64,000 bases of DNA from assembly GCA_028696455.1 (NCBI GenBank), contig JAQVGZ010000001.1, positions 1 to 64,000 of the forward strand. The letters are read 5' to 3'. The notes beneath the pieces were generated by a model that saw only the letters and a program-made list of their open reading frames with translations, had not been told where the DNA came from and did no database searches. Position 1 is the stretch's first letter. Each line of letters starts with the position of its first letter. The position numbers and the translations under genes were made by a program. Below, one piece after another: positions 6,023 through 47,837 of this stretch. The DNA comes from Desulfotomaculaceae bacterium. Its GTDB lineage: Bacteria; Bacillota; Desulfotomaculia; Desulfotomaculales; Pelotomaculaceae.

Positions 6023-6104
6023 ACCTTATTTAGAGATTAATTTTCTTTAATTAGAGGAATTTTAGTATTTATGTAGAAACAAGAATCTAAACCAAAGTAT
6101 AGTA

Positions 6105-6200
6105 AAATTCCTAAACGGCCAGCCTAAGCTATAGGTATGGTTGCCCGTTCGCTAGGGTACTCCGGGAAACTGGTGCGCCTCCCATTGTGGAAAGGAGTTT
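6105..6200 (+). ncRNA. Moco/Tuco riboswitch, copy 2 (first of tandem pair)
   Basis: aattcctaaacggcc...ggtatggttgcccgttcgctagggtactccgggaaactggtgcgcctcccattgtggaaaggagtt; 5' segment diverges from the ctccgagcc form but P1 can still pair. Confidence 0.75.
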
Positions 6201-6220
6201 TGGCTTTATAATTGTGATGT

Positions 6221-6260
6221 AAAGCTTTGACCCTGGCTGCGACTGGGGCAAAGCTTTTTT
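6221..6260 (+). terminator. Intrinsic terminator of riboswitch copy 2
   Basis: aaagctttgaccc...ggggcaaagctttttt. Confidence 0.8.
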
Positions 6261-6268
6261 ATATATTA

Positions 6269-6357
6269 TTCTCTCCGAGCCTTGCAGCCTATAGTGGTTG
6301 CCGGCCGTTAGGGTACATGGGGAAAACCGGTGTGCCTTCCAAAGTGAAAAGGTGAGT
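6269..6357 (+). ncRNA. Moco/Tuco riboswitch, copy 3 (second of tandem pair)
   Basis: ttctctccgagccttgcagcctatagtggttgccggccgttagggtacatggggaaaaccggtgtgccttccaaagtgaaaaggtgag. Confidence 0.8.
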
Positions 6358-6444
6358 AGGAATTGGCGACAATGCCGGGCTGGCTTGCATTTTCACAAAG
6401 CTTACCTGGCATTAGATTTGAAAGAGGCAAATGAAGGATAGCCA

Positions 6445-7011
6445 ATGCTACACAAAATGCTTGATAAGTTTTCCGTTTTCGATTTAATAATCATCGCGAT
6501 GATTTCAGCCCTGGGCGTGGCCAGTAAACCGCTTATAGTACCTCTTTGCCATATTATCACCGGGCCGCTGTTGATTCCCGGCGGGGTGGTGGCAGGTGGT
6601 TTTTACATGTTGTGGCTTGTCCTCGGGGCGGGAATTGTAAGTAAAACGGGAGCAGCCATTATGATTGGGGTTGTGCAGGCGTTAATGGTCTTCGGTTCGG
6701 GGATTTTTGGCTCGCACGGGGCGATGACTCTGCTTAGCTACACCTTACCCGGTCTTGCTGTTGATCTGCTGCTTTACCTGATGGGACATAATGTATGCTG
6801 TCTGCTTTGTGCTTTTCTGGCAGGTCTTGTTGCCAATATCTCAGGCTCGGCCTTAGTAAATATAATTTATTTCCGGCTGCCTTTTGTACCCTTGGTACTT
6901 GCTTTAACGGTGGCAGCTTTATCTGGTGGACTGGGTGGTATTATCGCTTATAAAGTATTGCAACTGGTTAATAAGCATAAGGGCTGGGGGAGTGGTTATT
7001 TTGGCGATTAA
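6445..7011 (+). CDS. ECF transporter S-component (substrate-specificity membrane protein)
   Basis: Small hydrophobic protein DLIIIAMISALGVASKPLIVPLCHIITGPLLIPGGVVAGGFYMLWLVLGAGI..., ECF S-component-like; preceded by tandem Moco riboswitches. Confidence 0.75.
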   Translation: MLHKMLDKFSVFDLIIIAMISALGVASKPLIVPLCHIITGPLLIPGGVVAGGFYMLWLVLGAGIVSKTGAAIMIGVVQALMVFGSGIFGSHGAMTLLSYTLPGLAVDLLLYLMGHNVCCLLCAFLAGLVANISGSALVNIIYFRLPFVPLVLALTVAALSGGLGGIIAYKVLQLVNKHKGWGSGYFGD

Positions 7012-7320
7012 AAGGCAGTGATTTTAATTTGGCCAGCTGACAAATATAGCTGGAAATCCATTATATTATTACAGGCTGACAAGCAGAACGTGGACAAACT
7101 AGCAATGGAAGAGGGCTTCCTATTTGTAACAATTATTTAGTTGCGGAGTGGTTGTACTTCCCTATCCTATGAGGATTATGCTGGAAAAACCCAAATTGTA
7201 AACACTTTTTGATTCTCAAAGAGCGATTGATAATTTTGTTAGAAGTGCTCATCCCTTAATTTATGGGGCTTGGGACTCTCGAATTAAAGCTAGGTTAATT
7301 TTAGACGAGGAGTGTATTCA

Positions 7321-10300
7321 ATGCGGATACGAAGCAAATGGGTCTTTAATACCTTAATGACCTTTTTCAGCGTGCTACTGCTAGTCGGTTCGGTTACCTT
7401 GCTCGCACCCACGGCCGCCCTGGCTATCGGGGACGACTTGATAATATCGGGACCCGGGTTGAATAGCACTGACCCTGTAACCATTACCCAAGACCAACTC
7501 CGGGGTAATCAGACATTATTAGACGGGACTACTTTACAGCAACAAGATGTAATCTACAGCACTATCAACACCTGGCCCACCAAGAGCTGGTACAGGGGGC
7601 AGGGCGTTAAGCTGACCGACCTGCTTGAGGCAGCCGGGGGAATCAAACCGGAGGCTACACAGATTAAATTTACCTCTAGAGATGGTTTTTCAGCGACCTT
7701 TACGGTGGATGAAATATTAAAAGCTCCCCGGTATCGTTTCCCTAACTTCATGAGCACCGGCCTACCCGGCCATCTCCCCGGTGACCCGTCGGGTAAAGAA
7801 TTAGTAGATACCATCATCGCTTACAGGAGCTTCTATGCCCAAAGTTATGATGATATCCTGGATGTGGAAAACTTTAACCGCTCGGATGCCAATCATCTGC
7901 TGTATGGTCAGCGGGCGGTAACCCAGCAGACCAATGCCAGGTTCGCCAAATATGTAAAACAAATCGAGGTGCTTACCGATCCTGCGGCCAAATGGGACAA
8001 TCCCACGATTACTCCGGCGCCTGGTGTGGTACCCGCAGGGACTATGGTTGAAATGCACAGTCCCTTCGACGATGAAGATAAGGTTCACTATACCCTGGAC
8101 GACAGCGTTCCGACCATAGAAAGCCCCATGTACAACTGGATTGCCAAACGGTGGTGGTCTTCAAGATCAGAAGAATTGGACGAAATTAACCACAAAATCG
8201 GTCCTATTAATAGCGACACCATCATCAAAGCCGTTGTCATCGGTCCCGGCCGGTTGGACAGCGACATAGTAACTTTTTCCTACCAGGTACCTGACCCTCC
8301 TGCTTTGACAGCTGATGTTTCAGATAATATAGTAGGGCAGCCGGTGGAGCTCACCTTTACAGACGATGCGGACTGGCGGGCGGCCATCACTAGCGTGAGC
8401 GTAGACGGCGCAGATCTGGTTGACGGTGAATATACGATTTCTGATGGTAAGATTACCATATCCGCAGATGTATTTACTGAAGCTAAAGATTACACTGTTG
8501 TAGTTAAGGCAACCGGGTACGAGGATGCTTGTGTGATGCAGACCATAAGATCAGGATTGCATGCTCCTCCGTCGTTGACGGTTGATGCCCTGGACAACGT
8601 AGTGGGGCAGCCGGTGGAGCTTACCTATACTGATGATGCGGCCTGGCGGGCGGCCATCACCGGCGTGAGCGTGGACGGCACGGACCTGATTGACGGCGAA
8701 TATACGATTTCTGATGGTAAGATTACCATTGCCGCAGATGTATTTACAGAAGCTAAAGATTACACTGTAGTGGTTAAGGCAACCGGGTACGATGACGTCA
8801 GTGTAACGCAGACAATAAGATCAGGATTGCATACTCCCCCGTCGTTGACGGTTGATGCCCTGGACAATGTAGTGGGGCAGCCAGTGGAGTTTACCTTTAG
8901 CGATGATGCGGCCTGGCGTGCGGCCATCACCGGCGTGAGCGTGGACGGCACGGACCTGGTTGACGGCAAATATACGATTTCTGATGGTAAGATTACCATT
9001 GCCGCAGATGTATTTACAGAAGCTAAAGATTACACTGTTGTGGTTAAGGCAACCGGGTATGATGAAGCCTGTGTGACGCAGACAATTAAGGATAAGACGG
9101 GTAATGGCGGCGGTCCAGTCGATCCTGACGAAAAGGTGATCCTGACAATCACAGGGGACGGGGTGCAGACTGAAAAGACATATACGTTGACCCAACTGCA
9201 GGCAATGAAGCAATATCAGCTGGATTACACCGCAATCAACACCTGGCCCAGCAAGAAATGGTATGTAGGGAAAGGTGTTAGCTTGAGAGAACTGCTCAAT
9301 GAGGCAGGGATGAAAAGCAGCGCCAGGCTGATTACATTTACTGCACGCGACGGCTTCAAAAGGACTCTTACGGTACAGGAGTTGCTTAACGACAGCAGGT
9401 ATCGTTTTCCTAACTTTATGGGTGGTGGCTCACATGATGGTGACGGGCATGTACCCGGTTCTTCCGCAGGCAAGGAAAAGGTAGAGCCTATACTCGGACT
9501 GGAAAGCGCTGAAGGAACGCGCGATCCCAGCTATATGAACAGCCTGAATGCCATCCTGCTGATGCTGGGGCAGCGGGCTGTCACCGAACAGACTGGTGAA
9601 TTGTTTGTTAAGAATCTAATAGAAATTGAGGTTTCGACCGAAGCGCCGGACAAGTGGGATAAGCCGGAAGCGGAGCCGGACAGCGGCGAGGTAGCCCCGG
9701 GGACGCTGGTAAAACTGAGCAGTGTGTACAACGATGCTGATAAAATCTATTACACAACGGATGGCAGCAATCCGACCATGGACAGTCCGATGTATAACTG
9801 GATTGCTAGCCGGTGGTGGTCGGCGCGGGCGGATGTTCTGGATAGCATCAATCACCCGATTGAAATTACCAAGGACACCACTATTAAAGCCAAAGTAATC
9901 GGTCCTGGGCGAAGAGACAGCGAGGTCGTTACCTTTACCTACAAAGTGAAGGAAGACCCGATTGAAAGCAGTAAGGTTTCATCCAGTCAAGGAGGCAAAG
10001 TGGAGCACGGCGAAGCCGTCATTGAAATACCGTCTGGAGCGCTGAAAAAAGCTAATGCAGAGCTCGGCATTCAAAAAGTAACCAACCCGCCTGCCGTACC
10101 TTCAGGTTTTAAACTGTTGAGCAGCGTTTATGAGTTCATTGTGGACGGCGAGAAGAGCTACAGCTTTGCCAAGAGCGTGACCATCAAGCTAAGCTTCGAT
10201 CCCAACGCTGTAGATGAGGGTGAGACTCCGTCCATCTACTACTATGACGAAAATCTGGAACACTGGGTGAACATCGGAGGTGAAGTATCCGGTAATACCG

Positions 10301-11298
10301 TTACAGTCCAGGTTGAGCACTTCACCAAGTTTGCCGTCATGGTCGCCGGCAAGCCCGAAATCGCGACCGGACTAATCACGCCCGGTGAAGGCGGTACCGT
10401 AAGTCTTGGCGGTGAAGCTGTCATAGAAATACCTTCCGGTGCGCTGACTGGAACCGGTGCGGTAGAGGTGAAAATTGAGAAAGTTACCGCCCCGCCCGCC
10501 GTGCCTGCAGGGTTCAAGCTGGTCGGCAGTGTGTATGAGTTTAGTGTGGACGGCAAAAGCAACTATAGTTTTGCCAATGATGTAACCATCAAGCTCAGCT
10601 ACGATTCCGGTACTATAAACGGGAACGAGACTCCGGTCGTATACTATTACGATGAAGAACTGGTTGAGTGGGTAAACCTCGGAGGTGAAGTATCCGGCAA
10701 TATAATATCAGTTCAGGTGGACCACTTTACCAAGTTTGCCGTAATGGTCGCTGTTAAAGAACCAATTCTGACAGACATAGACGATCACTGGGCTATGGAC
10801 AACATCAACAAGCTGGTTAGCATGGGGTGCATCAACGGTTATCCCGACGGTACTTTTAAGCCTGACCATCCCATTACCAGGGCTGAATTTGCAACTATAC
10901 TGGTAAAAGCTTTCCAGTTTGAGAACAAGGGCGGCATAGTTTTTGCCGATACCGCTGGGCACTGGGCCAGGGATTATATTGCCATGGCTTCGGCCAACGG
11001 GGTAGTAACCGGTTATGACGACGATACTTTTGGTCCGGATGATCTGATTACCCGCGAACAGATGGCCGTGATGATCGTCAGGGCCGCAAAATTAGCCTCG
11101 GAGGCAGGCGAGACCAGTTTTACTGACAGCGATAATATTTCTCACTGGGCTAAAGATTCCATTGCTATTGCGACGGGGAACGGAATCATGAAAGGATATC
11201 CTGACCACACAGTACGGCCTCAGGACAACGCTACCAGGGCAGAGGCGGTGACGGTCATTATTAATGCCTTGGAGATTAGTTTGTTGAATAGTCAATAA
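7321..11298 (+). CDS. Exported SLH protein with two SUOX/molybdopterin-binding-like domains, chitobiase-C-like domains, three Shr-HID/DUF1533 repeats, two ZU5-like repeats and three SLH domains
   Basis: Signal peptide; YSTINTWPTKSWYRGQGVKLTDLLEAAGG and YTAINTWPSKKWYVGKGVSLRELLNEAG; VHYTLDDSVPTIESPMYNW; LTADVSDNIVGQPVELTFTDDADWRAAITSV repeats; ITRAEFATILVKAF SLH motifs. Start refined from 7312 to ATG 7321. Confidence 0.88.
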   Translation: MRIRSKWVFNTLMTFFSVLLLVGSVTLLAPTAALAIGDDLIISGPGLNSTDPVTITQDQLRGNQTLLDGTTLQQQDVIYSTINTWPTKSWYRGQGVKLTDLLEAAGGIKPEATQIKFTSRDGFSATFTVDEILKAPRYRFPNFMSTGLPGHLPGDPSGKELVDTIIAYRSFYAQSYDDILDVENFNRSDANHLLYGQRAVTQQTNARFAKYVKQIEVLTDPAAKWDNPTITPAPGVVPAGTMVEMHSPFDDEDKVHYTLDDSVPTIESPMYNWIAKRWWSSRSEELDEINHKIGPINSDTIIKAVVIGPGRLDSDIVTFSYQVPDPPALTADVSDNIVGQPVELTFTDDADWRAAITSVSVDGADLVDGEYTISDGKITISADVFTEAKDYTVVVKATGYEDACVMQTIRSGLHAPPSLTVDALDNVVGQPVELTYTDDAAWRAAITGVSVDGTDLIDGEYTISDGKITIAADVFTEAKDYTVVVKATGYDDVSVTQTIRSGLHTPPSLTVDALDNVVGQPVEFTFSDDAAWRAAITGVSVDGTDLVDGKYTISDGKITIAADVFTEAKDYTVVVKATGYDEACVTQTIKDKTGNGGGPVDPDEKVILTITGDGVQTEKTYTLTQLQAMKQYQLDYTAINTWPSKKWYVGKGVSLRELLNEAGMKSSARLITFTARDGFKRTLTVQELLNDSRYRFPNFMGGGSHDGDGHVPGSSAGKEKVEPILGLESAEGTRDPSYMNSLNAILLMLGQRAVTEQTGELFVKNLIEIEVSTEAPDKWDKPEAEPDSGEVAPGTLVKLSSVYNDADKIYYTTDGSNPTMDSPMYNWIASRWWSARADVLDSINHPIEITKDTTIKAKVIGPGRRDSEVVTFTYKVKEDPIESSKVSSSQGGKVEHGEAVIEIPSGALKKANAELGIQKVTNPPAVPSGFKLLSSVYEFIVDGEKSYSFAKSVTIKLSFDPNAVDEGETPSIYYYDENLEHWVNIGGEVSGNTVTVQVEHFTKFAVMVAGKPEIATGLITPGEGGTVSLGGEAVIEIPSGALTGTGAVEVKIEKVTAPPAVPAGFKLVGSVYEFSVDGKSNYSFANDVTIKLSYDSGTINGNETPVVYYYDEELVEWVNLGGEVSGNIISVQVDHFTKFAVMVAVKEPILTDIDDHWAMDNINKLVSMGCINGYPDGTFKPDHPITRAEFATILVKAFQFENKGGIVFADTAGHWARDYIAMASANGVVTGYDDDTFGPDDLITREQMAVMIVRAAKLASEAGETSFTDSDNISHWAKDSIAIATGNGIMKGYPDHTVRPQDNATRAEAVTVIINALEISLLNSQ
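8300..9096 (+). repeat. Three tandem HID/DUF1533-coding repeats, period 270 bp
   Basis: gggcagccggtggag-type motif recurs at 8335, 8605 and 8875 with near-identical flanks (gatggtaagattaccat...gcagatgtatttac...). Confidence 0.9.
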
Positions 11299-11462: not shown

Positions 11463-13277
11463 ATGAGTGTAAAGGGGATACACCATGGGCAAAAAGACGA
11501 CATAACTCATATAGGGGATTGTCGCCGGACAAATACTCCCGATCGGATGTCGCCGGTGGCATACATACACTTGAATAAGCGATATTACCTGCTCTTGGTG
11601 AACACCCTAGTTATTTTGCTGTTTGCTGCTTTGCTTAATATGACAGCAGCCGGGCTGGCCCTGGCCGATCCGTCTAACTCGGTAGAAATCACCGGTGAGG
11701 GAGTGACGACTCCAGTGACGTTAACCCGTGCTCAACTAGAGGAAATGGAACATTACGAGCATGTGTACAGTGTGATAAACACCTGGCCCACCAAGAAATG
11801 GTATGTAGCTAAAGGAGTAAAACTAAGGGACCTGTTTGATCTGGCGGGGCTTAAAGAAGATGCCACACTGGTTAAATTCACATCAAACGACGGCTTCGAA
11901 GTGACACTTACGGTGCAGCAGCTTTTAAGAGACAAGCGATATTATTTTCCACGTTTAATGGATAATCACCCCAGTGACGGGAGCATTCCCGGATCTCCGG
12001 CGGATGCAATAGAAGTAGAACCAATTCTTGCCCTGGTCAGTGTTGAGGACAGTAATGATCCCAGCCAAATGATTGATAGAGACTCTTTGCTTCTGGTGGT
12101 CGGGCAGCGGGTGGTTACCGAGCAAACGAACCCCTTATTTTTAAAATATGTAAATAAAATAGAGATCCTCACCACTCCTCCACAAAAATGGGATAATCCC
12201 AAGGCCGATATGGAAAGTGGGGAAGTACCCGCAGGGTCTATGATAAAACTGAGCAGCAAGCGTAATGACATGGATAAGATCCATTACACCACGGACGGTA
12301 GTATCCCCACTATAAACAGCCCGGTGTTTAACTGGAGCGCCAGCAGGTGGTGGCCGCTGCGGTCGGATTTGGACAGTGTCAACCAGCCGATACAGATTAA
12401 CGAGGATACCGTGATTAGAGCTATCACCATTGGTCCAGGTAAGCTGGACAGCGACGTCGTTACCTTTACCTACAAAGCTGATTATACCGGCAGAGCGGCC
12501 GAGCGGTTGAGTCAACCGGGCGGGCCACCCACCGTGGTTACCTTGGACCAGAACTCAATCAACCTCAAAATCGGCAGCTCGTACGAGCTGGTAGCTACTG
12601 TCGGCCCGGGTAATGCCATAGACAAGAGCGTGACCTGGAGTTCCAGTGACACCAGTGTGGCTACGGTGGATAACAACGGTCTGGTGACGGTGATCGGGCC
12701 CGGTACGGCCGTCATCACGGTAAGAACAGTCATCGGAAACCTGACTGCCACCTGCGTGGTAAATAGTCCGGACCAGGACAGCAGTGGCTTGATCGCTGAA
12801 CCTGCCGACGCCGTTCCGCAGGATAAAGCGCAGGAAGAGCCGGTGGAGCCGCTAGAGCCGGTACCCGGTGAGCCAACCCTGCCGGAAACGGAGCCGGCTA
12901 CCGCTGCTCTAAATAATGCCGGTGCGGTGCTGGAGCTTTCAGTGCAGGAAACGTCTCCAGAGTTAGAGGAACCTCCCAAGCCGGAGATGCCTTCAGAATT
13001 TGAGGAGTCTCCCGAACAGGAGGAGCTGGTTGAAAACGGACGGTACCTGGTGGAAAAGGAGGTGGTAACGGCTGCTTCAATAACTGCCGATGTTTCTTCG
13101 GAGCAGACGGCCAGCCAACCGGCTCAAGTATTTGAGATGACGGTCGATGCCGGACCAACACAGCTGCATTTGGCGCAGAATAATCTGGATATTTACACGG
13201 CAGGGGTAGGTCTTTTCCTGTTTATTTTCGGTGGAAGTAGAAGGTATATAGAATACGTGAGGGAGGTCACAAGGTGA
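11463..13277 (+). CDS. Membrane-anchored exported protein: SUOX-like domain, chitobiase-C-like, Big2, acidic/Pro-rich linker, C-terminal TM
   Basis: YSVINTWPTKKWYVAKGVKLRDLFDLAG; VTLDQNSINLKIGSSYELVATVGPGNAIDKSVTWSSSDTSVATVDNNGLVTVIGPGTAVITV (Big2); C-terminal LDIYTAGVGLFLFIFGGSRRYIEY. Stop overlaps the next start. Confidence 0.82.
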   Translation: MSVKGIHHGQKDDITHIGDCRRTNTPDRMSPVAYIHLNKRYYLLLVNTLVILLFAALLNMTAAGLALADPSNSVEITGEGVTTPVTLTRAQLEEMEHYEHVYSVINTWPTKKWYVAKGVKLRDLFDLAGLKEDATLVKFTSNDGFEVTLTVQQLLRDKRYYFPRLMDNHPSDGSIPGSPADAIEVEPILALVSVEDSNDPSQMIDRDSLLLVVGQRVVTEQTNPLFLKYVNKIEILTTPPQKWDNPKADMESGEVPAGSMIKLSSKRNDMDKIHYTTDGSIPTINSPVFNWSASRWWPLRSDLDSVNQPIQINEDTVIRAITIGPGKLDSDVVTFTYKADYTGRAAERLSQPGGPPTVVTLDQNSINLKIGSSYELVATVGPGNAIDKSVTWSSSDTSVATVDNNGLVTVIGPGTAVITVRTVIGNLTATCVVNSPDQDSSGLIAEPADAVPQDKAQEEPVEPLEPVPGEPTLPETEPATAALNNAGAVLELSVQETSPELEEPPKPEMPSEFEESPEQEELVENGRYLVEKEVVTAASITADVSSEQTASQPAQVFEMTVDAGPTQLHLAQNNLDIYTAGVGLFLFIFGGSRRYIEYVREVTR

Positions 13278-13930
13278 TAGTTTCTATGTTGGCGCCGCTT
13301 AGAGAGACAATGCATACTATTTCGTCCGGTTTATTGATGCCTACTATTGCCATCCTGCTATTATTATTGGCAGTGTCGGTGATTGAGTTGGGCGGACTGC
13401 TGGTGGAGGCCCTCACTGAGCGGCGCAAGATGAAGATCAGCGTGCCGGACCTGGTTGAATCCTTCCAGGGTAAGAAGGCCGGGGAGATTATGGCTGAAAT
13501 TGAGAAAAGCGGTCTGTTCCGGCGCCAGAAAGCAGCCCTCGGTGAGCTGATCAAGCACAGCAGTTTACCTGCTGCCTCCTTACAGGCCCTGGCCCGCCGG
13601 TTGCTTGCCGGTGAGGATCTGCATTATGCCAGGATCACTACCAGGACTGACTTGGTAGCAAGACTGGGACCCATGTTAGGGCTGATGGCTACGTTGATCC
13701 CGCTGGGACCGGGTATGATTGCCCTGGGTCAGGGTGATACCAAGACCCTGGCCGAATCTCTGCTTACTGCCTTTGACGCTACGGTAGCCGGTCTGGCTGC
13801 AGCCGGCATTGCCTTTGCCATCTCCCGGCTGCGTAAAAGGTGGTATGAGGATTACTTGAATTCCTTGGAGGCCTTGATGGAAAGCTTATTGGAGGTGTTT
13901 GACCGTGGGCGGCGGACTGAGGAGCATTAG
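13274..13930 (+). CDS. MotA/TolQ/ExbB-family proton channel protein
   Basis: ARITTRTDLVARLGPMLGLMATLIPLGPGMIALGQGDTKTLAESLLTAFDATVAGLAAAGIAFAI is ExbB/TolQ-like. Confidence 0.85.
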   Translation: MIVSMLAPLRETMHTISSGLLMPTIAILLLLLAVSVIELGGLLVEALTERRKMKISVPDLVESFQGKKAGEIMAEIEKSGLFRRQKAALGELIKHSSLPAASLQALARRLLAGEDLHYARITTRTDLVARLGPMLGLMATLIPLGPGMIALGQGDTKTLAESLLTAFDATVAGLAAAGIAFAISRLRKRWYEDYLNSLEALMESLLEVFDRGRRTEEH

Positions 13931-14219
13931 GCGCAGGTTGTCTGAAGAGGTCAATCCACTTGATGGCGCGATTAATATCGTGGATGCCATGCTGGTATTT
14001 GCCTGCGGGCTGATGCTCTCTCTGGTGATGCACTGGAATGTCGACCTGGGCCAGATAGGAGAGCGCGTCAACCTGAATCGTGGCCAGGAAGTGACCCAGA
14101 CGCCGGAAATAAGGGAAGACTTGATTGAAACTCAGGGAGAGGGCAAGCTTTACGAAAGGATGGGCACGGTTTATAAAGACCCTGACACAGGGCAGCTGTT
14201 CATGCTAACCAGTGAGTAG
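13905..14219 (+). CDS. DUF2149-family membrane protein (putative ExbD-like partner)
   Basis: EEVNPLDGAINIVDAMLVFACGLMLSLVMHW; GTG 13905 after ggaggtg; overlaps the ExbB-like gene. Confidence 0.75.
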   Translation: MGGGLRSIRRRLSEEVNPLDGAINIVDAMLVFACGLMLSLVMHWNVDLGQIGERVNLNRGQEVTQTPEIREDLIETQGEGKLYERMGTVYKDPDTGQLFMLTSE

Positions 14220-14307
14220 AACAGTATAATGGTCTAACCGGCCAGTGATTATGCTTATATATTACGTATATATGGCAGCTACACTTTATGGAAAGGAGAT
14301 TATTAAA

Positions 14308-15840
14308 ATGATAGTACAAAGGGAAAGGGACACTTCTTTAAAAATGTGTCTGCACTCAAAAAAATGGTTATCCGGTATATTGCTAACCGTCCTGGGTCTA
14401 CTGTTTTTGGGTATGGCAAGCTTGACCACGCCTGCAGTTGCCCTTGCCGCTGACCCGGATACCCTTGAAATCACGGGGGATGGTGTAACTACACCCTTGA
14501 CCTTAACCAGAGCCCAACTGGAAGCAATGCCACAATATCAGCATGTTTACAGCGCCATTAATACTTGGCCTACCAAGAAATGGTATGTTGGTAAGGGAGT
14601 TAAGCTAAGGGACTTATTTGATAAAGCCGGGATGCGCGAGGACGCCAAGCTGATTAGGATAACTTCGCGCGACGGGTATGTAGTGAACCTGACCGTGCAG
14701 GAGTTATTAAGGGACAAACGCTATTATTTCCCGGAACTAAAAGGTGTTGTCGCCAAAGATGGTGACGGGCATCTTCCGGGCTCTCCAGCAAAAGCGCAAG
14801 AGGTAGAACCGATGCTTGCCCTGGTCAGTGTGGAGGGCAGTAACAACCCCGATTATATGAACGATTTGAATTCGCTGCTGCTGATGCTGGGACAAAGGGC
14901 AGTAACCGAACAAAACGGTAATTTATTTAGTAAGTATGTTAATAAGATTGAGGTGCTCACAACAGAGCCGGAAAAATGGGACAGCCCGCAGGCAAATCCG
15001 GAAAGCGGTATCATACCCGCCGGGTCTATGGTGGCACTGAGTAATGCCCACATGGATGACGATAAGATTTATTACACTACCGACGGCAGCACCCCGACTA
15101 TTAACAGCCCGATGTATAACTGGATTGCCAAACGCTGGTGGTCGTCAAGAGCAGATGATTTAGGCAAGATTAATCACCCGATCGGCCCGATTAATGAAAA
15201 TACGACCATCAAGGCCATAACCATTGGCCCAGGTAAGTATAACAGCGATGTGGTCACCTTTACCTATCAGGTTGAAGGGGCTGATCCGGCAGACGAAACG
15301 GAAATAACCACACCCAGCGACCCTTCTTTAAATGACGTTGCCGGCCACTGGGCTCTGGAAAACATTAATCAGCTTGTAAACCTGGGTTGCATCAGCGGTT
15401 ACCCTGACGGCAGCTTCAAACCTAACAGTACTATTACCAGGGCCGAGTATGCCACGGTGCTGGTGAAGGCGTTCAAGCTGCAGAACAATGGCGGGAAGAT
15501 CTTTAACGATACCGTGGCGCACTGGGCCAAAGACTCCATTGCCGCGGCAGCGGCAAATGGCCTGGTCGATGGTTATGCTGACGGTACTTTTGGCCCGGAC
15601 GACCTGATTACCCGCGAACAGATGGCCGTGATGATCGTCAGGGCGGCCAAACTAGCTCCGGCAGCTGAAGAACCCCAGTTTGCCGACAGCGGCGATATAT
15701 CCGTGTGGGCCCGGGAGGCCATTGTCACTGCCACCCAAAACGGGATTATGAAAGGGTATTCGGATAACACCGTCAAGCCCGCGGGCAGCGCGACTAGGGC
15801 TGAAGCGGTAACGGTTATTATCAATGCGTTAAATAAATAG
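14308..15840 (+). CDS. Exported SUOX-like + chitobiase-C-like protein with three SLH domains
   Basis: LEITGDGVTTPLTLTRAQLEAMPQYQHVYSAINTWPTKKWYVGKGVKLRDLFDKAG; three SLH repeats at C-term. Start refined to ATG 14308 after ggaaaggag. Confidence 0.88.
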   Translation: MIVQRERDTSLKMCLHSKKWLSGILLTVLGLLFLGMASLTTPAVALAADPDTLEITGDGVTTPLTLTRAQLEAMPQYQHVYSAINTWPTKKWYVGKGVKLRDLFDKAGMREDAKLIRITSRDGYVVNLTVQELLRDKRYYFPELKGVVAKDGDGHLPGSPAKAQEVEPMLALVSVEGSNNPDYMNDLNSLLLMLGQRAVTEQNGNLFSKYVNKIEVLTTEPEKWDSPQANPESGIIPAGSMVALSNAHMDDDKIYYTTDGSTPTINSPMYNWIAKRWWSSRADDLGKINHPIGPINENTTIKAITIGPGKYNSDVVTFTYQVEGADPADETEITTPSDPSLNDVAGHWALENINQLVNLGCISGYPDGSFKPNSTITRAEYATVLVKAFKLQNNGGKIFNDTVAHWAKDSIAAAAANGLVDGYADGTFGPDDLITREQMAVMIVRAAKLAPAAEEPQFADSGDISVWAREAIVTATQNGIMKGYSDNTVKPAGSATRAEAVTVIINALNK

Positions 15841-15942: not shown

Positions 15943-16836
15943 ATGAATCTAAAAAGTTTTTTTTCTAAAAACAATTACCTGCTTATTAGCCTGGTGATCA
16001 TATTTTGCGTTTTCTTGACTGCTGCCTGTAATGACAGAGCGGTGCAGGAGCAGGACAGTAGCCAAAATAGTGAACAGTCGGTTTTGGTTACCGGCAACGG
16101 TGTGCGGCAAGAAATCCGGATGAATCTGGAAGAGATGCTGCAGTTGCCCGGCGCCCGCTTTGAGCACGTTTATTCCACCGTAAACAACTGGCCAACCAGG
16201 AAGAAGTATGCGGTGAAGGGCGTTAAGTTGGCAACAGTGCTGCAAGCCGCAGGGATCAAAGACGAAGCGCAGTGCATTACTGTTAAGGGTAAAGACGATT
16301 TCGAGTGGTCCTTTACCCGGGAGCAGTTACTGGATACCCCGAGATTTTATTATCCTGAAGTAATATCTGGAGATCCGTCCGGCGCCGAGCCGGTTGAACC
16401 GGTTATCGCCTACGAGTACATGGAAAATAGTGATGATCTGAGTGAAGCCAGGGCGGACGACTTATGCCTGATCGTGCCACAGGCGTATGTCCATGAGCAA
16501 ACCAACCACACCTTTGTCAAGGGTGTCAGGGAGATCATGGTGACTGTGGAAGACCCGGGAAAATGGGCGCCAGCTACTGTTTTCCCCCAGGCAGGGAAAA
16601 TTACCAGGGGTGATACGGTAAAACTGCAGCATCAGGAAATCGGCAAGGTAAAAATGTATTATACTCTGGACGGCTCAACGCCGAGCGAAAACAGCACTCT
16701 TTATAATCCCAGCACCTATCAGCCTGAGTTGAACAAGCCCATCAGGATAGATGGAGGTACGACGATCAAGGTTTTCGTGCAGGGTTTCGGCAAGTATGAC
16801 AGCGACATAGCCGAGTTTCGCTACCAAATTGAATGA
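15943..16836 (+). CDS. Lipoprotein with SUOX/molybdopterin-binding-like and chitobiase-C-like domains
   Basis: Lipobox FLTAACND; VYSTVNNWPTRKKYAVKGVKLATVLQAAGI; MYYTLDGSTPSENSTLYNPST. Confidence 0.82.
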   Translation: MNLKSFFSKNNYLLISLVIIFCVFLTAACNDRAVQEQDSSQNSEQSVLVTGNGVRQEIRMNLEEMLQLPGARFEHVYSTVNNWPTRKKYAVKGVKLATVLQAAGIKDEAQCITVKGKDDFEWSFTREQLLDTPRFYYPEVISGDPSGAEPVEPVIAYEYMENSDDLSEARADDLCLIVPQAYVHEQTNHTFVKGVREIMVTVEDPGKWAPATVFPQAGKITRGDTVKLQHQEIGKVKMYYTLDGSTPSENSTLYNPSTYQPELNKPIRIDGGTTIKVFVQGFGKYDSDIAEFRYQIE

Positions 16837-16847
16837 ATAAACGTGAG

Positions 16848-16884
16848 CCCGGTAAAAGCCGGTGCCAAACCGGCTTTTACCGGG
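16848..16884 (+). terminator. Terminator-like hairpin
   Basis: cccggtaaaagccgg / ccggcttttaccggg perfect 15-bp stem; no long U-tract. Confidence 0.55.
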
Positions 16885-16923
16885 GCAAGCGGTATAACCT
16901 GTCAAATCTAACAAGGAGGGTGC

Positions 16924-18045
16924 TTGAGTTTGCGAAGAAGCGGCAAGAGTATATCTCTTTATCTTGTTTTATGCATGATTTGTTTTGCCCTGGCCGGATG
17001 TGACCGGCAGGAAGTTGCCGGCGCTCCTAATGCAGAATATGAAGCGCAAAAGATTATCGTTGAAGGCGATATAGAAAACCCCCGGGAAATCACCGTGGGA
17101 GAAATGCGTTCTCTTCCTCAAAAAAAACTGGACGCCAGTCTCACCCGTACCACCGGGCTCCTGGAAGAGTTTAAAGCAACCGGCCCTACCGTTAAGGATG
17201 TCCTGGAGCACATGGGCATCAACTATAAAGATTATAAGGGCATCGGTTTTACCGGAAGGGACAATTATTATTGCCTGGTGACGCCGGAGATTATAGCCGA
17301 ACGGGAGCTGATCCTGGCTTTAACCGTGGACGGGCAAAACGAACTACCGGACGAACTGAGGCCTGCGCGGCTATGCGTGCAGGGGGAGTTTGGCCCCTAT
17401 TGGGTGAAGATGGTCGACAGGATTGTTTTGTACAAGGAGATCCCAGAGAAAGACATTACTTCCGTATGGGTCTTTAAAAACCTGGCGGAAGGGATTGAAC
17501 CGTACCAGTATGAGTATTACGGCAGTAAAGACGACGCCATTGAATTGGCGCAGATCTTTTCCCGCTTTGACAATGTTGACAGCAAGGCCTTCTTCACGAT
17601 GAAATCATCTGATGGCTTTAAGAAAAATGAAGCGATAAACATGGTCAGCCAGCGCTATTACATTAAAGTTTCCGGTGAGGACGCGCCGATGAACATGGCG
17701 CCGAATATAAAACTGGGTATGAACGTCATGCATATTGCCTGGTTTTCCACCAATGCCGATGCGGCAATTTTTCCGGAAGAAATAATTGAATTAACCGGGG
17801 AGCGGCAAGTTGGCGCGCACAAGGGCATTTCTTTAAGTGCCATGCTGGAGGAAATCGGATTGACGGATATTGAGAATAAACAGTTTGAGGTGGTCGGTAC
17901 AGATGGCAATAGTGTTCGGGTAAGCGGCCAGGAGCTGGATAAAGGTATTCTGCTCATCAAAGAGGACGGCTCGTATCCGGTAGTCTGGCATGAGGGAGAA
18001 GGGCTGAAACCCATTGATAACTTGATGCGCCTGCGCCAGCGGTAA
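16924..18045 (+). CDS. Lipoprotein with two SUOX/molybdopterin-binding-like domains
   Basis: Lipobox FALAGCDR; GLLEEFKATGPTVKDVLEHMGINYKDYKGIGFTGRDNYYCLVTPEIIAERELILALTVDGQNELPDELRPARLCVQGEFGPYWVKMVDRIVLY, resembling the oxidoreductase molybdopterin-binding domain. Confidence 0.82.
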   Translation: MSLRRSGKSISLYLVLCMICFALAGCDRQEVAGAPNAEYEAQKIIVEGDIENPREITVGEMRSLPQKKLDASLTRTTGLLEEFKATGPTVKDVLEHMGINYKDYKGIGFTGRDNYYCLVTPEIIAERELILALTVDGQNELPDELRPARLCVQGEFGPYWVKMVDRIVLYKEIPEKDITSVWVFKNLAEGIEPYQYEYYGSKDDAIELAQIFSRFDNVDSKAFFTMKSSDGFKKNEAINMVSQRYYIKVSGEDAPMNMAPNIKLGMNVMHIAWFSTNADAAIFPEEIIELTGERQVGAHKGISLSAMLEEIGLTDIENKQFEVVGTDGNSVRVSGQELDKGILLIKEDGSYPVVWHEGEGLKPIDNLMRLRQR

Positions 18046-18054
18046 GAGGGGAGA

Positions 18055-18963
18055 ATGACAGTGCCAGGGATGCATAAGCTGCTTAAAAAAACAGGTCTGA
18101 TCGCGGTTTGGCTGGCCGCATGCTTAAGCCTTTTGACCGGGTGTCAAGGCCAAAAGGGTGATAAGCCCCCGGATGTAACCCGTAGTGAGCCGGGCGTATT
18201 GATAATCACTGGTAACGGTGTGGATCAGGAATGCAGGTTCACCACCGAGGAGCTAAAAAGTATGGAGGAGGCTTTGGCTGGCGCCTGCTACTCAGCCTTG
18301 AACAACTGGCCGGCAAAAAAATTCATTGTCGGTAAGGGCATAAAGCTTACCCATCTGCTGCAAAAAGCCGGAATAAAAGAAGATGCGCAGACGATCACCG
18401 TCCGGGCGGCAGACGGTTATAGCGCTAGATTTACCATGGAGCAGCTGGAGGAAAAGCGTTTTTGCTTTCCAAACTTGATCGAAGACAGTCCGGCGGAGGC
18501 TGTGGAAGTACCTATGATTTTGGCCTGGGAGTATCAGGAGGATACTACCGATTTGAGCAAGGCCGCCAGTGGTAAATTGCGTCTGATTTTTGGCCAAACC
18601 AGATTGAACGAAGTGGTTACGGCCGCCTTCGTTAAAGATGTAGCAGTCATCGAAGTATCAACAGCGCCGCCTGGTCAATGGAGTGTGGTCTGGGCTGAAC
18701 CGGCTCCGGGGAAGGTGAAGCAGGGAACAGAGGTCATTTTAAGTCATCCCGAGCAGGACCTGGTCAAGATCCATTACACCGTTGACGGGAGTGACCCGGA
18801 TAGAGAAAGCACGGTATATAACCCTAGCACCACCTACTTCCGGCCTGAACTGAACAAGCCGATCCCGGTTGATAAACCAGTTACCATCAAAGCCATTGCC
18901 ATTGGTTTCGGGAAACACAGCAGCCAGGTGGCAACTTTTAAATACGATGTAGAAGAAAATTGA
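18055..18963 (+). CDS. Lipoprotein with SUOX-like and chitobiase-C-like domains
   Basis: Lipobox SLLTGCQG; CYSALNNWPAKKFIVGKGIKLTHLLQKAGI; IHYTVDGSDPDRESTVYNPST. Confidence 0.82.
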   Translation: MTVPGMHKLLKKTGLIAVWLAACLSLLTGCQGQKGDKPPDVTRSEPGVLIITGNGVDQECRFTTEELKSMEEALAGACYSALNNWPAKKFIVGKGIKLTHLLQKAGIKEDAQTITVRAADGYSARFTMEQLEEKRFCFPNLIEDSPAEAVEVPMILAWEYQEDTTDLSKAASGKLRLIFGQTRLNEVVTAAFVKDVAVIEVSTAPPGQWSVVWAEPAPGKVKQGTEVILSHPEQDLVKIHYTVDGSDPDRESTVYNPSTTYFRPELNKPIPVDKPVTIKAIAIGFGKHSSQVATFKYDVEEN

Positions 18964-19057
18964 GAATGTCACCAATAGTAGAGTTCCCTAATGAAGATAA
19001 CAGCATCCGGCGAAACGATGATGCGAAACCTTGGTATCAGATGGGAGTTGGGAAAAT

Positions 19058-19675
19058 GTGCAAAATAAACACGTAGTCTGGATGCTTGCCGCAGCTATCC
19101 TCGTTGTTTTCGTGGTCTGGTACTTTACTGATAATAAAATGACCGCTCCCCAAAAGGAAGCTCTACAGGAGTTACTCCAAAGCGAGCAAGAAATCGCTGA
19201 CGAAGCTATTGAAGGTATTGAACTGCCGGCAGAAATCAAGGAAAAGTTTCCAGCAGTGAAGAAGGGTTTCGTAATAAACTGCGGTGAACAGAAATATTAC
19301 GCTTTTTTATCAAGCCCGCTAGGTTACCGGAGTGCCATTGATCTTTTTATTGTTGTTGATGGTCATAAAAACGAGATGCTGGGAACCAGGGTATTGCAGC
19401 ATGGTGAGACGCCTTTATATGGAGGAGATAGCCTTACCAAAGCCTGGTTTTTAAACCGGTTTAATAACAAAAGCGTCAGCGCTTATTTAAATAGAGTGGT
19501 TCTGGAGCCATCCCAGCCAAATGATATTGTCCAGATAACCTGTGCCACAGTAAGCTCCCAGGCCGTGATCAACGGGGTTAATGCCGCCATGGGGGCCTAT
19601 CGTGAATTGGTCCTGGGAGAGGAAACGCAACCGGTACCCATGAAAGTAGAAGGGTTTGTTACGGAAATCAAGTAA
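19058..19675 (+). CDS. Membrane-anchored FMN-binding domain protein (RnfG/NqrC-like flavin carrier)
   Basis: N-terminal TM; PLYGGDSLTKAWFLNRFNNK...IVQITCATVSSQAVINGVNAAMGAYRE resembles the FMN_bind threonine flavinylation motif. ORF track start 19031; GTG 19058 preferred. Confidence 0.7.
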   Translation: MQNKHVVWMLAAAILVVFVVWYFTDNKMTAPQKEALQELLQSEQEIADEAIEGIELPAEIKEKFPAVKKGFVINCGEQKYYAFLSSPLGYRSAIDLFIVVDGHKNEMLGTRVLQHGETPLYGGDSLTKAWFLNRFNNKSVSAYLNRVVLEPSQPNDIVQITCATVSSQAVINGVNAAMGAYRELVLGEETQPVPMKVEGFVTEIK

Positions 19676-19712
19676 GGGAAAAACCCGGTTACACCTGGAG
19701 GTAGTATTATTG

Positions 19713-20228
19713 ATGGAAAGCAAGGCAGTTGACCAAAAGAAAATCCTCTTTGTGGTGATTGCCCTACTGGTTATTATTATCGCTGTATTTGCTTTTTTGA
19801 ATCGCAGTAACGAAAACCTGCGGGAAGATCAAATCTTGATTAAGTCCGGCGATACTGTTTTCGGTGTCCTGACGGTTGCTGACCTGCAAAAACTACCGGC
19901 GGCGCAAAAGAAAATGGTGGTACAATCCACCAGCGGCATGACCAAACACGAGTTTACCGGTGTATCGCTATTAGATGCCTTAAACAGCATCGATACCGGA
20001 TTGACGCAAAAATACTCCAGGATTATTACCAAAGGCATCGACAACTACACCTCAGGGGTGGAAATGGATGAAGTCCTGCGGCCGAATAATGTGTTTATAG
20101 TGTACGCTGACTATGGGCAACCGTTAAAAACAAAGACCGGTGGGGAGGGAGCTATGCGCATTATTATATACCAGGATGAGTTCGGGCAGCGCTTCACCAA
20201 TTTCCTTACCAGCCTGGAATTGCAGTAA
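19713..20228 (+). CDS. Single-TM anchored SUOX/molybdopterin-binding-like domain protein
   Basis: TM KKILFVVIALLVIIIAVFAFL; HEFTGVSLLDALNSIDTGLTQKYSRIITKGIDNYTSGVEMDEVLRPNNVFIVYADYGQPLKTKTGGEGAMRIIIYQDEFGQRFTNFLTSLEL. Start refined to ATG 19713 after ggaggt. Confidence 0.75.
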   Translation: MESKAVDQKKILFVVIALLVIIIAVFAFLNRSNENLREDQILIKSGDTVFGVLTVADLQKLPAAQKKMVVQSTSGMTKHEFTGVSLLDALNSIDTGLTQKYSRIITKGIDNYTSGVEMDEVLRPNNVFIVYADYGQPLKTKTGGEGAMRIIIYQDEFGQRFTNFLTSLELQ

Positions 20229-20258
20229 AATCTGCCAAGACTAAATCACAAAATTAAA

Positions 20259-20352
20259 TTTTTCCGAGCCGCATGACCTAAAGGTGACTATGGTTATCGG
20301 CCTACAGGGTATGCCGGGAAACTGCCGTACCTCCCATTGTGGAAAGGAAAAG
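20259..20352 (+). ncRNA. Moco/Tuco riboswitch, copy 4
   Basis: ttttccgagccgcatgacctaaaggtgactatggttatcggcctacagggtatgccgggaaactgccgtacctcccattgtggaaaggaaa. Confidence 0.85.
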
Positions 20353-20369
20353 AAGCTGCTTTGATATTG

Positions 20370-41480: not shown

Positions 41481-41649
41481 ATCTTAATCAAAAACTGATA
41501 AATTGGCTCATTAATCAATCCAACCCACAGCATCTCAGTGCTGGTCACATTTTAGATCTTACAATAGCATTAATAAAAATGGTAAATATATAATCTTGCT
41601 GGTAATTTTGTAGTATAATAACTAATATAGACGTTTTGCCTAAGTAAAT

Positions 41650-41747
41650 ACTTCTCCGAGTCCAGTTGCCTGTCGTTAATAGCCACGGCAGTTGGGCCTA
41701 CAGGTGTAGTTGGAAACGGGTACACCTCCCATTGCGAAAAGGAGAGA
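41650..41747 (+). ncRNA. Moco/Tuco riboswitch, copy 6 (leader of phosphoesterase-ECF-mobB operon)
   Basis: acttctccgagtccagttgcctgtcgttaatagccacggcagttgggcctacaggtgtagttggaaacgggtacacctcccattgcgaaaaggagag. Confidence 0.78.
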
Positions 41748-41769
41748 CATGATATCATCTGCGCTTATT

Positions 41770-41806
41770 AAGGCTTTGTCTCCATCAAACAATGGGACAA
41801 AGCCTT
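41770..41806 (+). terminator. Intrinsic terminator-like hairpin of riboswitch copy 6
   Basis: aaggctttgtctcc...gggacaaagccttt. Confidence 0.7.
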
Positions 41807-41885
41807 TGTGTCATACGCAATTATTATCCAACAAAAAAGATTTTTGTAGATTTGAGGAAAACTTACGATAAAGGAGTGCGGTGAT

Positions 41886-43448
41886 ATGAGACCTGGATTT
41901 GATTACAGCAAAAGAAAAATAACGGCTGCAGAAAGCATTTTTTGCTTTATTTTTTTGCTATTAACGGTTTTATATTGCTGGTTTTTTTCTCCTGTTGCCT
42001 TAGCTGAGGAATCCGCGAAGCCTGAGCAAATTATTCTGACCTGGACTATGGATCCGGCTACATCTCAGACAATTACCTGGTTAACACCAACTAATTCCCC
42101 TGCCCGGGTAGAGTATTTAATTGCAGATGAATTTATCGGCAATTTTGATTCAGCCCAACAAGTGGATGCCGGGTGTTCTGCATTTGACAGTTCCAATTAC
42201 CGTTTTACAGTAAATATAACCGGATTGACCCCGGCTACAAAGTATGTCTACCGGGTTGGGAGAGAAGGGGCCTGGAGCGCGCCTTTATCCTTTACTACAG
42301 CCGCGGCCACACAGGATTTCTCTTTCTTGTACTTTGGAGATGTGCAGTCCGGCTATTCCGATTGGGGCAGTACGCTGGATTCAGTTGAACAAGCCTACCC
42401 CCAAATCAAATTTGCTCTTTTAGGCGGGGATTTAACGGATAACGGCAGCGATGAGAATGAGTGGGGGCAGTTTCTTGATGCCGCGACGGGCGTATTCTCG
42501 CAGATTCCAGTAATGCCGGCCATGGGAAACCATGATGGAACGATGTATCAGAAGTTTTTTGCACTCCCGGACAACGGCCCCGCAGGTTTTAAGCAGACTT
42601 TTTACTCCTTTGATTACGGGGATGCCCATTTTGTTATATTGAACAGCAGCAACAATACTGATGAAAGAGTGAAACAATGGCTGGCACATGACCTGCAAAA
42701 CACGACAAAAGTATGGAAATTTGTTGTTTTTCATATTCCCGCTTATCCGGCTACTTATGATTACAAGGGAATTGATCAATCCATACGCGCAAATTGGGTG
42801 CCCATTTTTGAACAACACAAGGTGGATATGGTTTTTGTCGGTCACCAGCATTTGTATATGCGGACCCATCCCATTTACCAGGGTGAAGTCCAGACTGAAC
42901 CGGCGTATGGGATTGTTTACGTGATGGGTAATGCCGGTTCCAAGACCTACGCCGGGGGCGGGGGATTTCCCTACATCGCCAGGGAACAGACCGGCAGCAA
43001 CTACCAGGTTATTGATATTGAAGATAATGTTTTGACATTGACATCAAAACAATCAACCGGTGAGCTGATTGAAATTTACACAATAAATAAAAGCGGCAGC
43101 ACGGACCCAAGGCCAGTCTACTCACTTTCTCCCCAGCCCGATCCATCTTATGCTGCTGGGACAACCCAGAACGGCATCAATACCATGACTGTCAATGCCG
43201 GTATGGTAGGTTTAAAATACTTCGCTTGCAGCGTTACGCCGGTGATCCCCCATAGTGGTAATGAAACATTGGTCTTTACACATTTAAGAAACGGTAGTCA
43301 GCTTGGACTCAACGCTACCAGAGCTGATTTTGACCAGGTCAGTATGGCCCAGGCCGGTTTTAATGTTCAGCAGGGTGATGTAATCAGAGCGTATATTGTA
43401 GATGCCATGACCAATGCCGTCGACGTTAACCCTGTGATTTTACAGTAA
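41886..43448 (+). CDS. Exported purple-acid-phosphatase-like metallophosphoesterase with shared C-terminal domain
   Basis: FLYFGDVQSG...ALLGGDLTDNG...MPAMGNHDG...VFVGHQHLYMRTHP metallophosphoesterase motifs; N-terminal FN3-like PAP domain; C-term YSLSPQPDPSYAAGTTQNGINTMTVNAGMVGLKYF... Confidence 0.87.
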   Translation: MRPGFDYSKRKITAAESIFCFIFLLLTVLYCWFFSPVALAEESAKPEQIILTWTMDPATSQTITWLTPTNSPARVEYLIADEFIGNFDSAQQVDAGCSAFDSSNYRFTVNITGLTPATKYVYRVGREGAWSAPLSFTTAAATQDFSFLYFGDVQSGYSDWGSTLDSVEQAYPQIKFALLGGDLTDNGSDENEWGQFLDAATGVFSQIPVMPAMGNHDGTMYQKFFALPDNGPAGFKQTFYSFDYGDAHFVILNSSNNTDERVKQWLAHDLQNTTKVWKFVVFHIPAYPATYDYKGIDQSIRANWVPIFEQHKVDMVFVGHQHLYMRTHPIYQGEVQTEPAYGIVYVMGNAGSKTYAGGGGFPYIAREQTGSNYQVIDIEDNVLTLTSKQSTGELIEIYTINKSGSTDPRPVYSLSPQPDPSYAAGTTQNGINTMTVNAGMVGLKYFACSVTPVIPHSGNETLVFTHLRNGSQLGLNATRADFDQVSMAQAGFNVQQGDVIRAYIVDAMTNAVDVNPVILQ

Positions 43449-43468
43449 CTATTTGGGAGGTCCTTGAT

Positions 43469-44200
43469 TTGGACGCCGTTGTGGTTGACAATCTTTGCTA
43501 TAAATATCAGCCCTCGGGCAGACAAATATTGAAAAACATCAGCTTCAAGGCCGGGCAAGGTGAGATAGTGGCTGTATTGGGTCTCAGTGGCTGCGGTAAA
43601 AGCACCCTGGGTTTATGCCTTGGCGGCATTATACCTCATTACCTGGGGGGTGAGTTGACCGGCCGGGTACAGGTACATGGAATAGAAGTAAAAGACCACA
43701 ATGTGGCCCGGCTGGCGCTGGAAGTGGGACTGGTCTTTCAGGATCCCGAAACGCAGCTTTTTTTACCAACTGTGGAGGATGAAATAGCTTTTGCCCCTGA
43801 AAATCTATGCCTGCCGCCGGAAGAGATAGGCAAGCGGGTTTATGACATGATCAATATGTTAGGTCTTAGTGATATAAGGCAAGCGAATCCAAACCAGTTA
43901 TCCGGAGGCCAAAAACATCTGGTGGCCCTGGGAGCGGTTTTAGCCCTGGAACCCGGTATACTGGTACTGGATGAAGTAATGGCCCAGATGGACTCTACGA
44001 GTAAAAAGAAGATTAAAGACATCCTGGTTAATTTGCGCCTTTACGGCAAAACCATTCTGATTATCGAACATGAACTGGAAAGCCTCTCCATCGCAGATCG
44101 TATTTTAGTGCTGGAGGACGGGGCTTTGATCCGGGATGGACAGGCATCAGAGATAGTAGCGGACGAAGAATTCCTGGCCAGGCAGAAGCTGATGTTTTGA
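43469..44200 (+). CDS. ecfA: ECF transporter ATPase (EcfA-type)
   Basis: GLSGCGKSTLGLCLGGIIPHYLGG; VFQDPETQLFLPTVEDEIAFAPENL; LSGGQKHLVALGAVLALEPGILVLDEV. Confidence 0.88.
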   Translation: MDAVVVDNLCYKYQPSGRQILKNISFKAGQGEIVAVLGLSGCGKSTLGLCLGGIIPHYLGGELTGRVQVHGIEVKDHNVARLALEVGLVFQDPETQLFLPTVEDEIAFAPENLCLPPEEIGKRVYDMINMLGLSDIRQANPNQLSGGQKHLVALGAVLALEPGILVLDEVMAQMDSTSKKKIKDILVNLRLYGKTILIIEHELESLSIADRILVLEDGALIRDGQASEIVADEEFLARQKLMF

Positions 44201-44363
44201 TCACGCTGATGGCGTATAACGCCGCCGGTCCTGGCTAAGGTAATACTACAATTGGAATATTAGAATCTGAAGATAGCAAGTCTCACCGGCGTTCTGGGCT
44301 GACAAGGGCTCGGTATAGGCCAGGTGGTATAGCTAATATTCAATAAATAGCTTGGGGGAACAA

Positions 44364-45032: not shown

Positions 45033-45034
45033 TC

Positions 45035-46677: not shown

Positions 46678-46723
46678 TGTGCAGGCATTAGATATATAAA
46701 TTATTACACTTAAGGAAGTAAAT

Positions 46724-47482: not shown

Positions 47483-47591
47483 GACCTTACAGGCACCTAG
47501 CAGTGCAAAATTTAATGTTTTTCCGGTAAATATTTGCGTATAGTTTTATATTTTGATAAAATACTCACCAAAATCAATGGAGGTGAGTATT

Positions 47592-47819: not shown

Positions 47820-47837
47820 AAAAGAAGGTTTGAATAT

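Follow-up and report, generated by a model that had tools for sequence, protein, structure and literature searches.

A candidate TonB-less, ExbB-DUF2149-energised surface receptor in a locus with molybdenum/tungsten cofactor riboswitches of a Gram-positive bacterium

Introduction

The closest described system to the genes considered here is the hmuSTUV cluster of Bacteroidota, which encodes HmuS (a CobN-like dechelatase), HmuT, HmuU (ExbB-like) and HmuV (a DUF2149 protein) (PMC12583661, PMC10434189). In monoderm bacteria, a survey has deemed the parts of Ton systems likely non-functional (PMC12204202). As for the regulatory RNAs that recur below, Regulski and colleagues linked Moco RNAs lacking the P3 stem to the tungsten cofactor, and found at least 15 Moco RNAs, some of them in tandem, in Syntrophomonas wolfei (PMC2408646). 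According to a 2022 paper, uptake of the molybdenum or tungsten (Mo/W) cofactor has not been examined or observed outside Caenorhabditis elegans (PMC9793310), and our search of the open-access literature turned up no importer of the finished cofactor in bacteria.

The stretch of DNA analysed, referred to as the window, comprises positions 1-64,000 (64,000 nucleotides) of contig JAQVGZ010000001.1 in assembly GCA_028696455.1 of a Desulfotomaculaceae bacterium, whose nearest relatives are Gram-positive (Pelotomaculum/Desulfotomaculaceae).

Results

Three overlapping open reading frames on the + strand (11463-13277, 13274-13930 and 13905-14219) were confirmed, together with the stop/start overlaps on which a preliminary description of the window had dwelt. 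The starts of the ExbB and DUF2149 genes each fall within the preceding gene, the former being a GTG at 13274, four bases short of the SUOX gene's end, the latter a GTG at 13905 within the ExbB gene, whose stop ends at 13930. The SUOX-ExbB-DUF2149 order and the overlaps were found again in about 70 Bacillota loci, therefore the trio does not owe its existence to chance. Its features are as follows.

11463-13277, + strand: SUOX-like candidate receptor of 604 amino acids, with a SUOX-like domain, Fn3_assoc, Big_2, a disordered Pro/Glu linker and a C-terminal transmembrane (TM) helix (Pfam, structural model)
13128-13274, + strand: tail module of the same protein, consisting of VFEM, a TM helix at 13167-13271 and RRYIEYVREV (tail alignment; tail profile E 2.7e-23 in its own genome)
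13274-13930, + strand: ExbB/TolQ/MotA-family channel subunit (PF01618, E 5.3e-8, above cut-off)
13905-14219, + strand: DUF2149 protein of 104 amino acids, with one TM helix bearing an invariant Asp27 and a C-terminal beta hairpin (PF09919, E 1.6e-9)

The Pfam match of the 604-aa protein to Oxidored_molyb (SUOX) is weak (E 6e-4, below cut-off). Its structural model has a pLDDT above 90 across most of residues 72-434, which span the SUOX-like, Fn3_assoc and Big_2 domains, followed by a disordered Pro/Glu linker (440-568) and a single helix (569-603) that corresponds to the C-terminal TM segment. The top Foldseek matches of this model are sulfite dehydrogenases (probability 1.00, E 4e-9, partial overlap), and a partial SUOX fold of the receptor head is thus predicted with confidence. 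The column of the Mo-ligating Cys, with Escherichia coli MsrP as reference, lacks conservation, Cys being present in 10 of the 121 aligned sequences, and the SUOX domain of the window protein holds no Cys. A catalytic molybdoenzyme is ruled out by the absence of this ligand, which makes the SUOX-like domain a candidate binding protein rather than an enzyme.

Thr140 and Thr170 of the window ExbB align with two threonines of E. coli ExbB, which are known to line the pore of the latter. In DUF2149, Asp27 lies in the sole TM helix, is invariant across 55 sequences and belongs to a D-x-M-L-V motif resembling the one in ExbD. Comparison of the DUF2149 and ExbD profiles by hhalign gave a p of about 0.015, with 3 of 200 column-shuffled profiles scoring equally high. 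The short soluble part appears, unlike that of ExbD, as a hairpin in a low-confidence model, and a sequence search of DUF2149 against the PDB returned unrelated matches only. DUF2149 may be considered, on weak grounds, a candidate ExbD-like subunit, its likeness to ExbD being limited to the Asp-bearing TM helix. The source genome contains a single MotA_ExbB match, and no match to ExbD (PF02472), a TonB-dependent plug domain or CobN was found in it. The sole outer-membrane match in the assembly is an Omp85 on a contig of 3289 bases (L220, G000:C2) with lower GC and a gammaproteobacterium-like gene order (bamA-skp-fabZ-lpxA-rnhB), which is probably contamination of a Bacillota assembly; an outer-membrane Ton system was ruled out, since this Omp85 sits on the contaminant contig.

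DUF2149 is present in 32 of 80 relatives and in 34 of the 399 genomes of a phylum sample. A scan of named genomes with an ExbB alignment found 80 loci; once the window is added to these, 64 have a SUOX-domain protein directly upstream. The loci are partly related, hence these and the following counts are not independent and the Poisson and Fisher values are descriptive. A basic ORF picker served for gene calling in the comparison loci. Among the carriers are Pelotomaculum, Desulfoscipio, Sporotomaculum, Syntrophomonas, Dethiobacter and gut clostridia. A sister arrangement, similar to hmuSTUV, is DUF2162-ExbB-DUF2149-CobN, with a full-length CobN and a DUF2162 permease, and the remaining partners of ExbB-DUF2149 include a CobN fragment some 460 aa long and a DUF3344 protein. 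The latter represents a third kind of head, found in L205 (3749-9406), where a divergent ExbB-DUF2149 pair accompanies DUF3344 surface proteins and a PF09819/CbiQ ECF set. In L202 (6338-8983) the pair occurs with an unannotated, C-terminally anchored protein of 881 aa, and in L054 and L206 it has no recognisable partner. In the ExbB tree, whose bootstrap has not fully settled, all pairs with tail-bearing partners (SUOX or CobN fragment) form one clade (100/100), apart from the pairs with full-length CobN.

The tail shared by the SUOX proteins upstream of ExbB comprises a juxtamembrane VFEM-like segment, one TM helix and, on the cytoplasmic side, a basic terminus of the form RYxEYxRE. A profile of this tail matches 70 of 74 ExbB-adjacent SUOX proteins, a count that is partly circular since such adjacent proteins served to train the profile, versus 1 of 166 other SUOX proteins. 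The sole non-adjacent match (L132) ends directly upstream of a partial ExbB match. Stand-alone CobN fragments adjoining ExbB-DUF2149 bear the same tail (E 1.5e-8 to 6e-4), and these matches, as well as the low rate in other SUOX proteins, are free of the circularity. Among 60 related genomes, a strong tail match was found in 19 of the 24 with this ExbB and in none of the 36 without it (descriptive Fisher value 2e-11); the five genomes with ExbB and no tail are expected for CobN-type or unassigned pairs. Shared by SUOX proteins and CobN fragments and co-occurring with ExbB across genomes, the tail looks, from sequence comparison, like a transferable docking module.

CobN fragments combining a signal peptide with the SUOX-type tail occur in L046 (6856-8226), L113 (5005-6465), L207, L208 and L213, and L046 additionally holds a near-full CobN without the tail. 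In L225, L226 and L227, tail-bearing SUOX proteins lie in clusters devoid of ExbB-DUF2149 (that of L226 resembles the window in gene order, minus the motor genes) and ExbB is located elsewhere in the genome, which suggests that one motor may serve several receptors.

The trio is embedded in a series of genes and RNA elements, listed here in order.

6096-6213, + strand: Moco riboswitch, aptamer 1 of a tandem, P3 stem absent (RF01055, 62.1 bits, E 1.6e-12, alignment)
6221-6257, + strand: intrinsic terminator-like hairpin between aptamer 1 and a T run (-19.1 kcal/mol, z -3.9)
6261-6370, + strand: Moco riboswitch, aptamer 2 of the tandem, P3 stem absent (RF01055, 50.3 bits)
6445-7011, + strand: YkoE-like ECF substrate-binding membrane protein (PF09819, E 3.7e-15)
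7312-11298, + strand: large S-layer-anchored protein with two SUOX-like domains, a Shr-like HID and SLH domains, without a tail match (Pfam, tail profile)
14245-15840, + strand: SUOX-like protein with SLH anchors (Pfam)
15943-18963, + strand: three SUOX-like secreted or lipoprotein genes, 15943-16836, 16924-18045 and 18055-18963 (Pfam)
19031-20228, + strand: FMN_bind (RnfG-like) protein and small membrane-anchored SUOX-like protein (Pfam, NCBIfam)
20250-20365, + strand: Moco riboswitch upstream of a 1127-aa SUOX-repeat protein (RF01055, 63.2 bits)
41642-41760, + strand: Moco riboswitch upstream of a phosphatase/ECF/kinase run (RF01055, 54.5 bits)
41886-48671, + strand: purple-acid-type phosphatase, two ABC ATPases, CbiQ-like EcfT, MobB-like protein, APH-type kinase and AA_kinase (Pfam)

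Both tandem aptamers exceed the gathering score, and the YkoE-like gene with which the run begins lies 75-350 bases downstream of them. The window holds eight of the 23 Moco riboswitches of the genome (0.55 expected), for which reason the greater part of it resembles a single Mo/W-cofactor regulon. In 14 further SUOX loci of Desulfotomaculia and Syntrophomonadia, 14 Moco RNAs were found versus 1.0 expected, distributed over 7 of the 14 loci; altogether 8 of 23 SUOX loci examined have a Moco riboswitch, and no cobalamin riboswitch was found in the SUOX loci scanned with Rfam. Cobalamin riboswitches are present in 10 of 11 loci with full-length CobN, and none of these 11 has a Moco RNA. In these loci ExbB-DUF2149 is accompanied by two heads, each with a riboswitch of its own: cobalamin for CobN, Moco/Tuco for SUOX. 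Rfam gave no match in eight gut clostridial loci, even at a loose threshold, and neither riboswitch was found in the CobN-fragment loci, which implies that the ligand may differ by clade.

Importer genes accumulate near the trio, and a YkoE-like ECF importer is frequent at SUOX loci. Within 9.5 kb of SUOX loci, FecCD was found 11 times (1.0 expected) and CbiQ 10 times (1.2 expected), and in L073 the order SUOX-tail, ExbB, DUF2149, YkoE, EcfA1, EcfA2, EcfT is contiguous. Phosphatase genes occur in 11 loci by clustering, the figure of 27 from pairwise searches being probably inflated by fn3 domains, and in L084 a Moco RNA (32-150) lies directly upstream of a purple-acid-type phosphatase gene at 189. 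The run at 41642-48671 of the window is a candidate operon, the gene content of which would suit import of a dephosphorylated cofactor followed by its re-phosphorylation. A general molybdate/tungstate transporter neighbourhood was rejected, TupA-like genes being found in 1 of 59 SUOX loci, that of the window; the case for Mo/W rests consequently on the riboswitches, not on TupA-like neighbours. AFOR genes lie near 5 of 59 SUOX loci, a weak association that comes mostly from one gut group. In the gut clostridial L116 and L127, FecCD, ABC, PBP, SUOX-tail, ExbB, DUF2149 and a SUOX lipoprotein form a single run, with an AFOR gene close by and no recognised riboswitch. In the RnfG-like FMN_bind protein of the window (19031-19675), TCAT is found at the position at which the usual flavinylation motif shows GAT following S/T; the protein may or may not be flavinylated.

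Discussion

We consider it somewhat probable, from gene content and homology, that the trio encodes a Ton-like energiser that would work without TonB, be driven by the proton motive force (PMF) and act on surface receptors in Mo/W-cofactor-responsive uptake, its coupling, contacts and ligand being inferred. The preliminary description had likewise seen in it an ExbB/DUF2149 energiser coupled to a SUOX-like, membrane-anchored protein, which may power a conformational change or ligand release by cell-surface receptors, and this interpretation holds in part. The tail module bears out a specific partnership of ExbB-DUF2149 with a membrane-anchored surface protein, and the Moco riboswitches supply the link of these neighbourhoods to the Mo/W cofactor. 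Of the SUOX-like nature of the partner, the fold and the anchor stand, but not the Mo ligand, which leaves a candidate binding protein. The SUOX pairing recurs across the neighbourhoods; it is however not exclusive, as the sister set with CobN under cobalamin riboswitches demonstrates.

We propose the following mechanism. ExbB would form a channel ring, within which the DUF2149 helix, with its invariant Asp, may act as a proton-carrying axle, as in ExbD. The TM helix of the receptor would pack against this motor, as homology and co-occurrence suggest, and proton flow may pull the Pro/Glu linker, which at about 50-130 residues would be long enough to cross the cell wall, so that the SUOX/Fn3/Ig head gives up its ligand or passes it on. 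These heads, of SUOX fold, may bind a tungsten or molybdenum cofactor of the molybdopterin type, or Mo/W species, and would hand it to a YkoE-like ECF or a FecCD ABC importer, the system being presumably activated by a shortage of Mo/W cofactor. We are less sure that the ligand is the finished cofactor, as opposed to a Mo/W species. The fuller proposal, namely that single-membrane bacteria scavenge the intact Mo/W cofactor with energy from the PMF, through capture at the surface by SUOX-fold heads, release by a shared ExbB-DUF2149 motor with an exchangeable tail, and a route completed by a surface phosphatase, an ECF importer, a kinase and MobB, is put forward tentatively, as a possibility about which we have some doubt.

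The alternative closest to this proposal keeps the motor and the receptor and changes the ligand to molybdate, tungstate or a metallophore loaded with either, the Moco riboswitch merely reporting Mo/W sufficiency. Moco RNAs indeed precede ordinary molybdate/tungstate transporter genes too, such as the one at 973-1093 of the window, which lies ahead of two PBP_like_2 proteins and an ABC ATPase, and FecCD/PBP transporters are present in the gut loci. Nevertheless, the heads share the fold of molybdopterin-binding proteins, the importers are of the ECF type with a YkoE-like S-component instead of Mod/Tup, and the phosphatase, kinase and MobB-like genes of the run led by a Moco RNA would be superfluous for oxyanions, which makes this alternative rather unlikely in our judgement. 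We find it improbable that ExbB-DUF2149 powers, instead of uptake, some enzyme-like or redox process that the SUOX proteins carry out outside the cytoplasm: the SUOX fold, a purple-acid phosphatase close by, and the FMN_bind and ApbE genes (in 7 and 4 of 59 SUOX loci, respectively) would fit such a process, but the Mo-ligating Cys is absent and, near the trio, importer genes are commoner than redox genes.

It is very improbable that the trio is a functionless vestige of a Ton/Hmu system in a monoderm. The survey verdict cited above would favour this explanation, as would the lack of the ExbB-DUF2149 set in a genome of the same genus (G001); in about 70 loci from many families, however, the order, the overlaps, the pore residues, the TM Asp and the tail have been kept, and the tail was retained through partner swaps. 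Hardly credible, and rejected on partner, neighbourhood and tail association, is a flagellar or other stator homolog beside an incidental SUOX neighbour: MotA proteins are the only significant PDB sequence matches of ExbB (best E 2e-5), but DUF2149 has no OmpA-like domain, neither flagellar nor gliding motor genes were seen beside ExbB in the loci examined, and the tail is associated with ExbB.

If the favoured interpretation, a TonB-less energiser of surface receptors, is true, ExbB-type motors can function in the absence of an outer membrane, energising in an exchangeable manner surface receptors that dock through a shared tail, and such motors active in monoderms would contradict the view that Ton parts are likely non-functional there. 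The interpretation likewise suggests a path for bacterial import of the molybdenum or tungsten cofactor, and offers two parallel systems, differing in ligand, in which the role of HmuU/HmuV can be tested.

In comparison with known systems, the trio resembles hmuSTUV in having an ExbB homolog and DUF2149 beside a large extracytoplasmic protein with a C-terminal TM helix, in a presumed context of nutrient acquisition (PMC12583661, PMC10434189). It differs in that a SUOX-like protein stands in the place of CobN, the DUF2162 permease is found within 9.5 kb in 0 of 59 SUOX loci versus 10 of 16, no TonB-dependent receptor accompanies it, and the control would be by Moco, not cobalamin or haem. With the ExbB/ExbD/TonB system it shares the ExbB fold with its pore threonines, a small single-TM partner with a membrane Asp and a long Pro-rich linker to a distal domain; the genome of the trio lacks, on the other hand, a TonB-dependent receptor, a PF02472 ExbD and an outer membrane, and the linker and the TM helix belong to the receptor itself, in reversed topology (C-terminal anchor). 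Unlike MotB of the flagellar stator MotAB, with its OmpA-like domain, DUF2149 consists, in its 104 aa, of a TM helix and a hairpin. The receptor heads share their fold with the sulfite oxidase family (SorA, SorT, MsrP), but comprise part of this fold only, in a receptor-like domain context, and do not conserve the Mo-ligating Cys. Finally, as in ECF vitamin transporters of the YkoE type (PF09819), the S-component, two ATPases and EcfT are encoded in or near the operon, accompanied here by a candidate energised surface receptor and predicted Moco riboswitch control.
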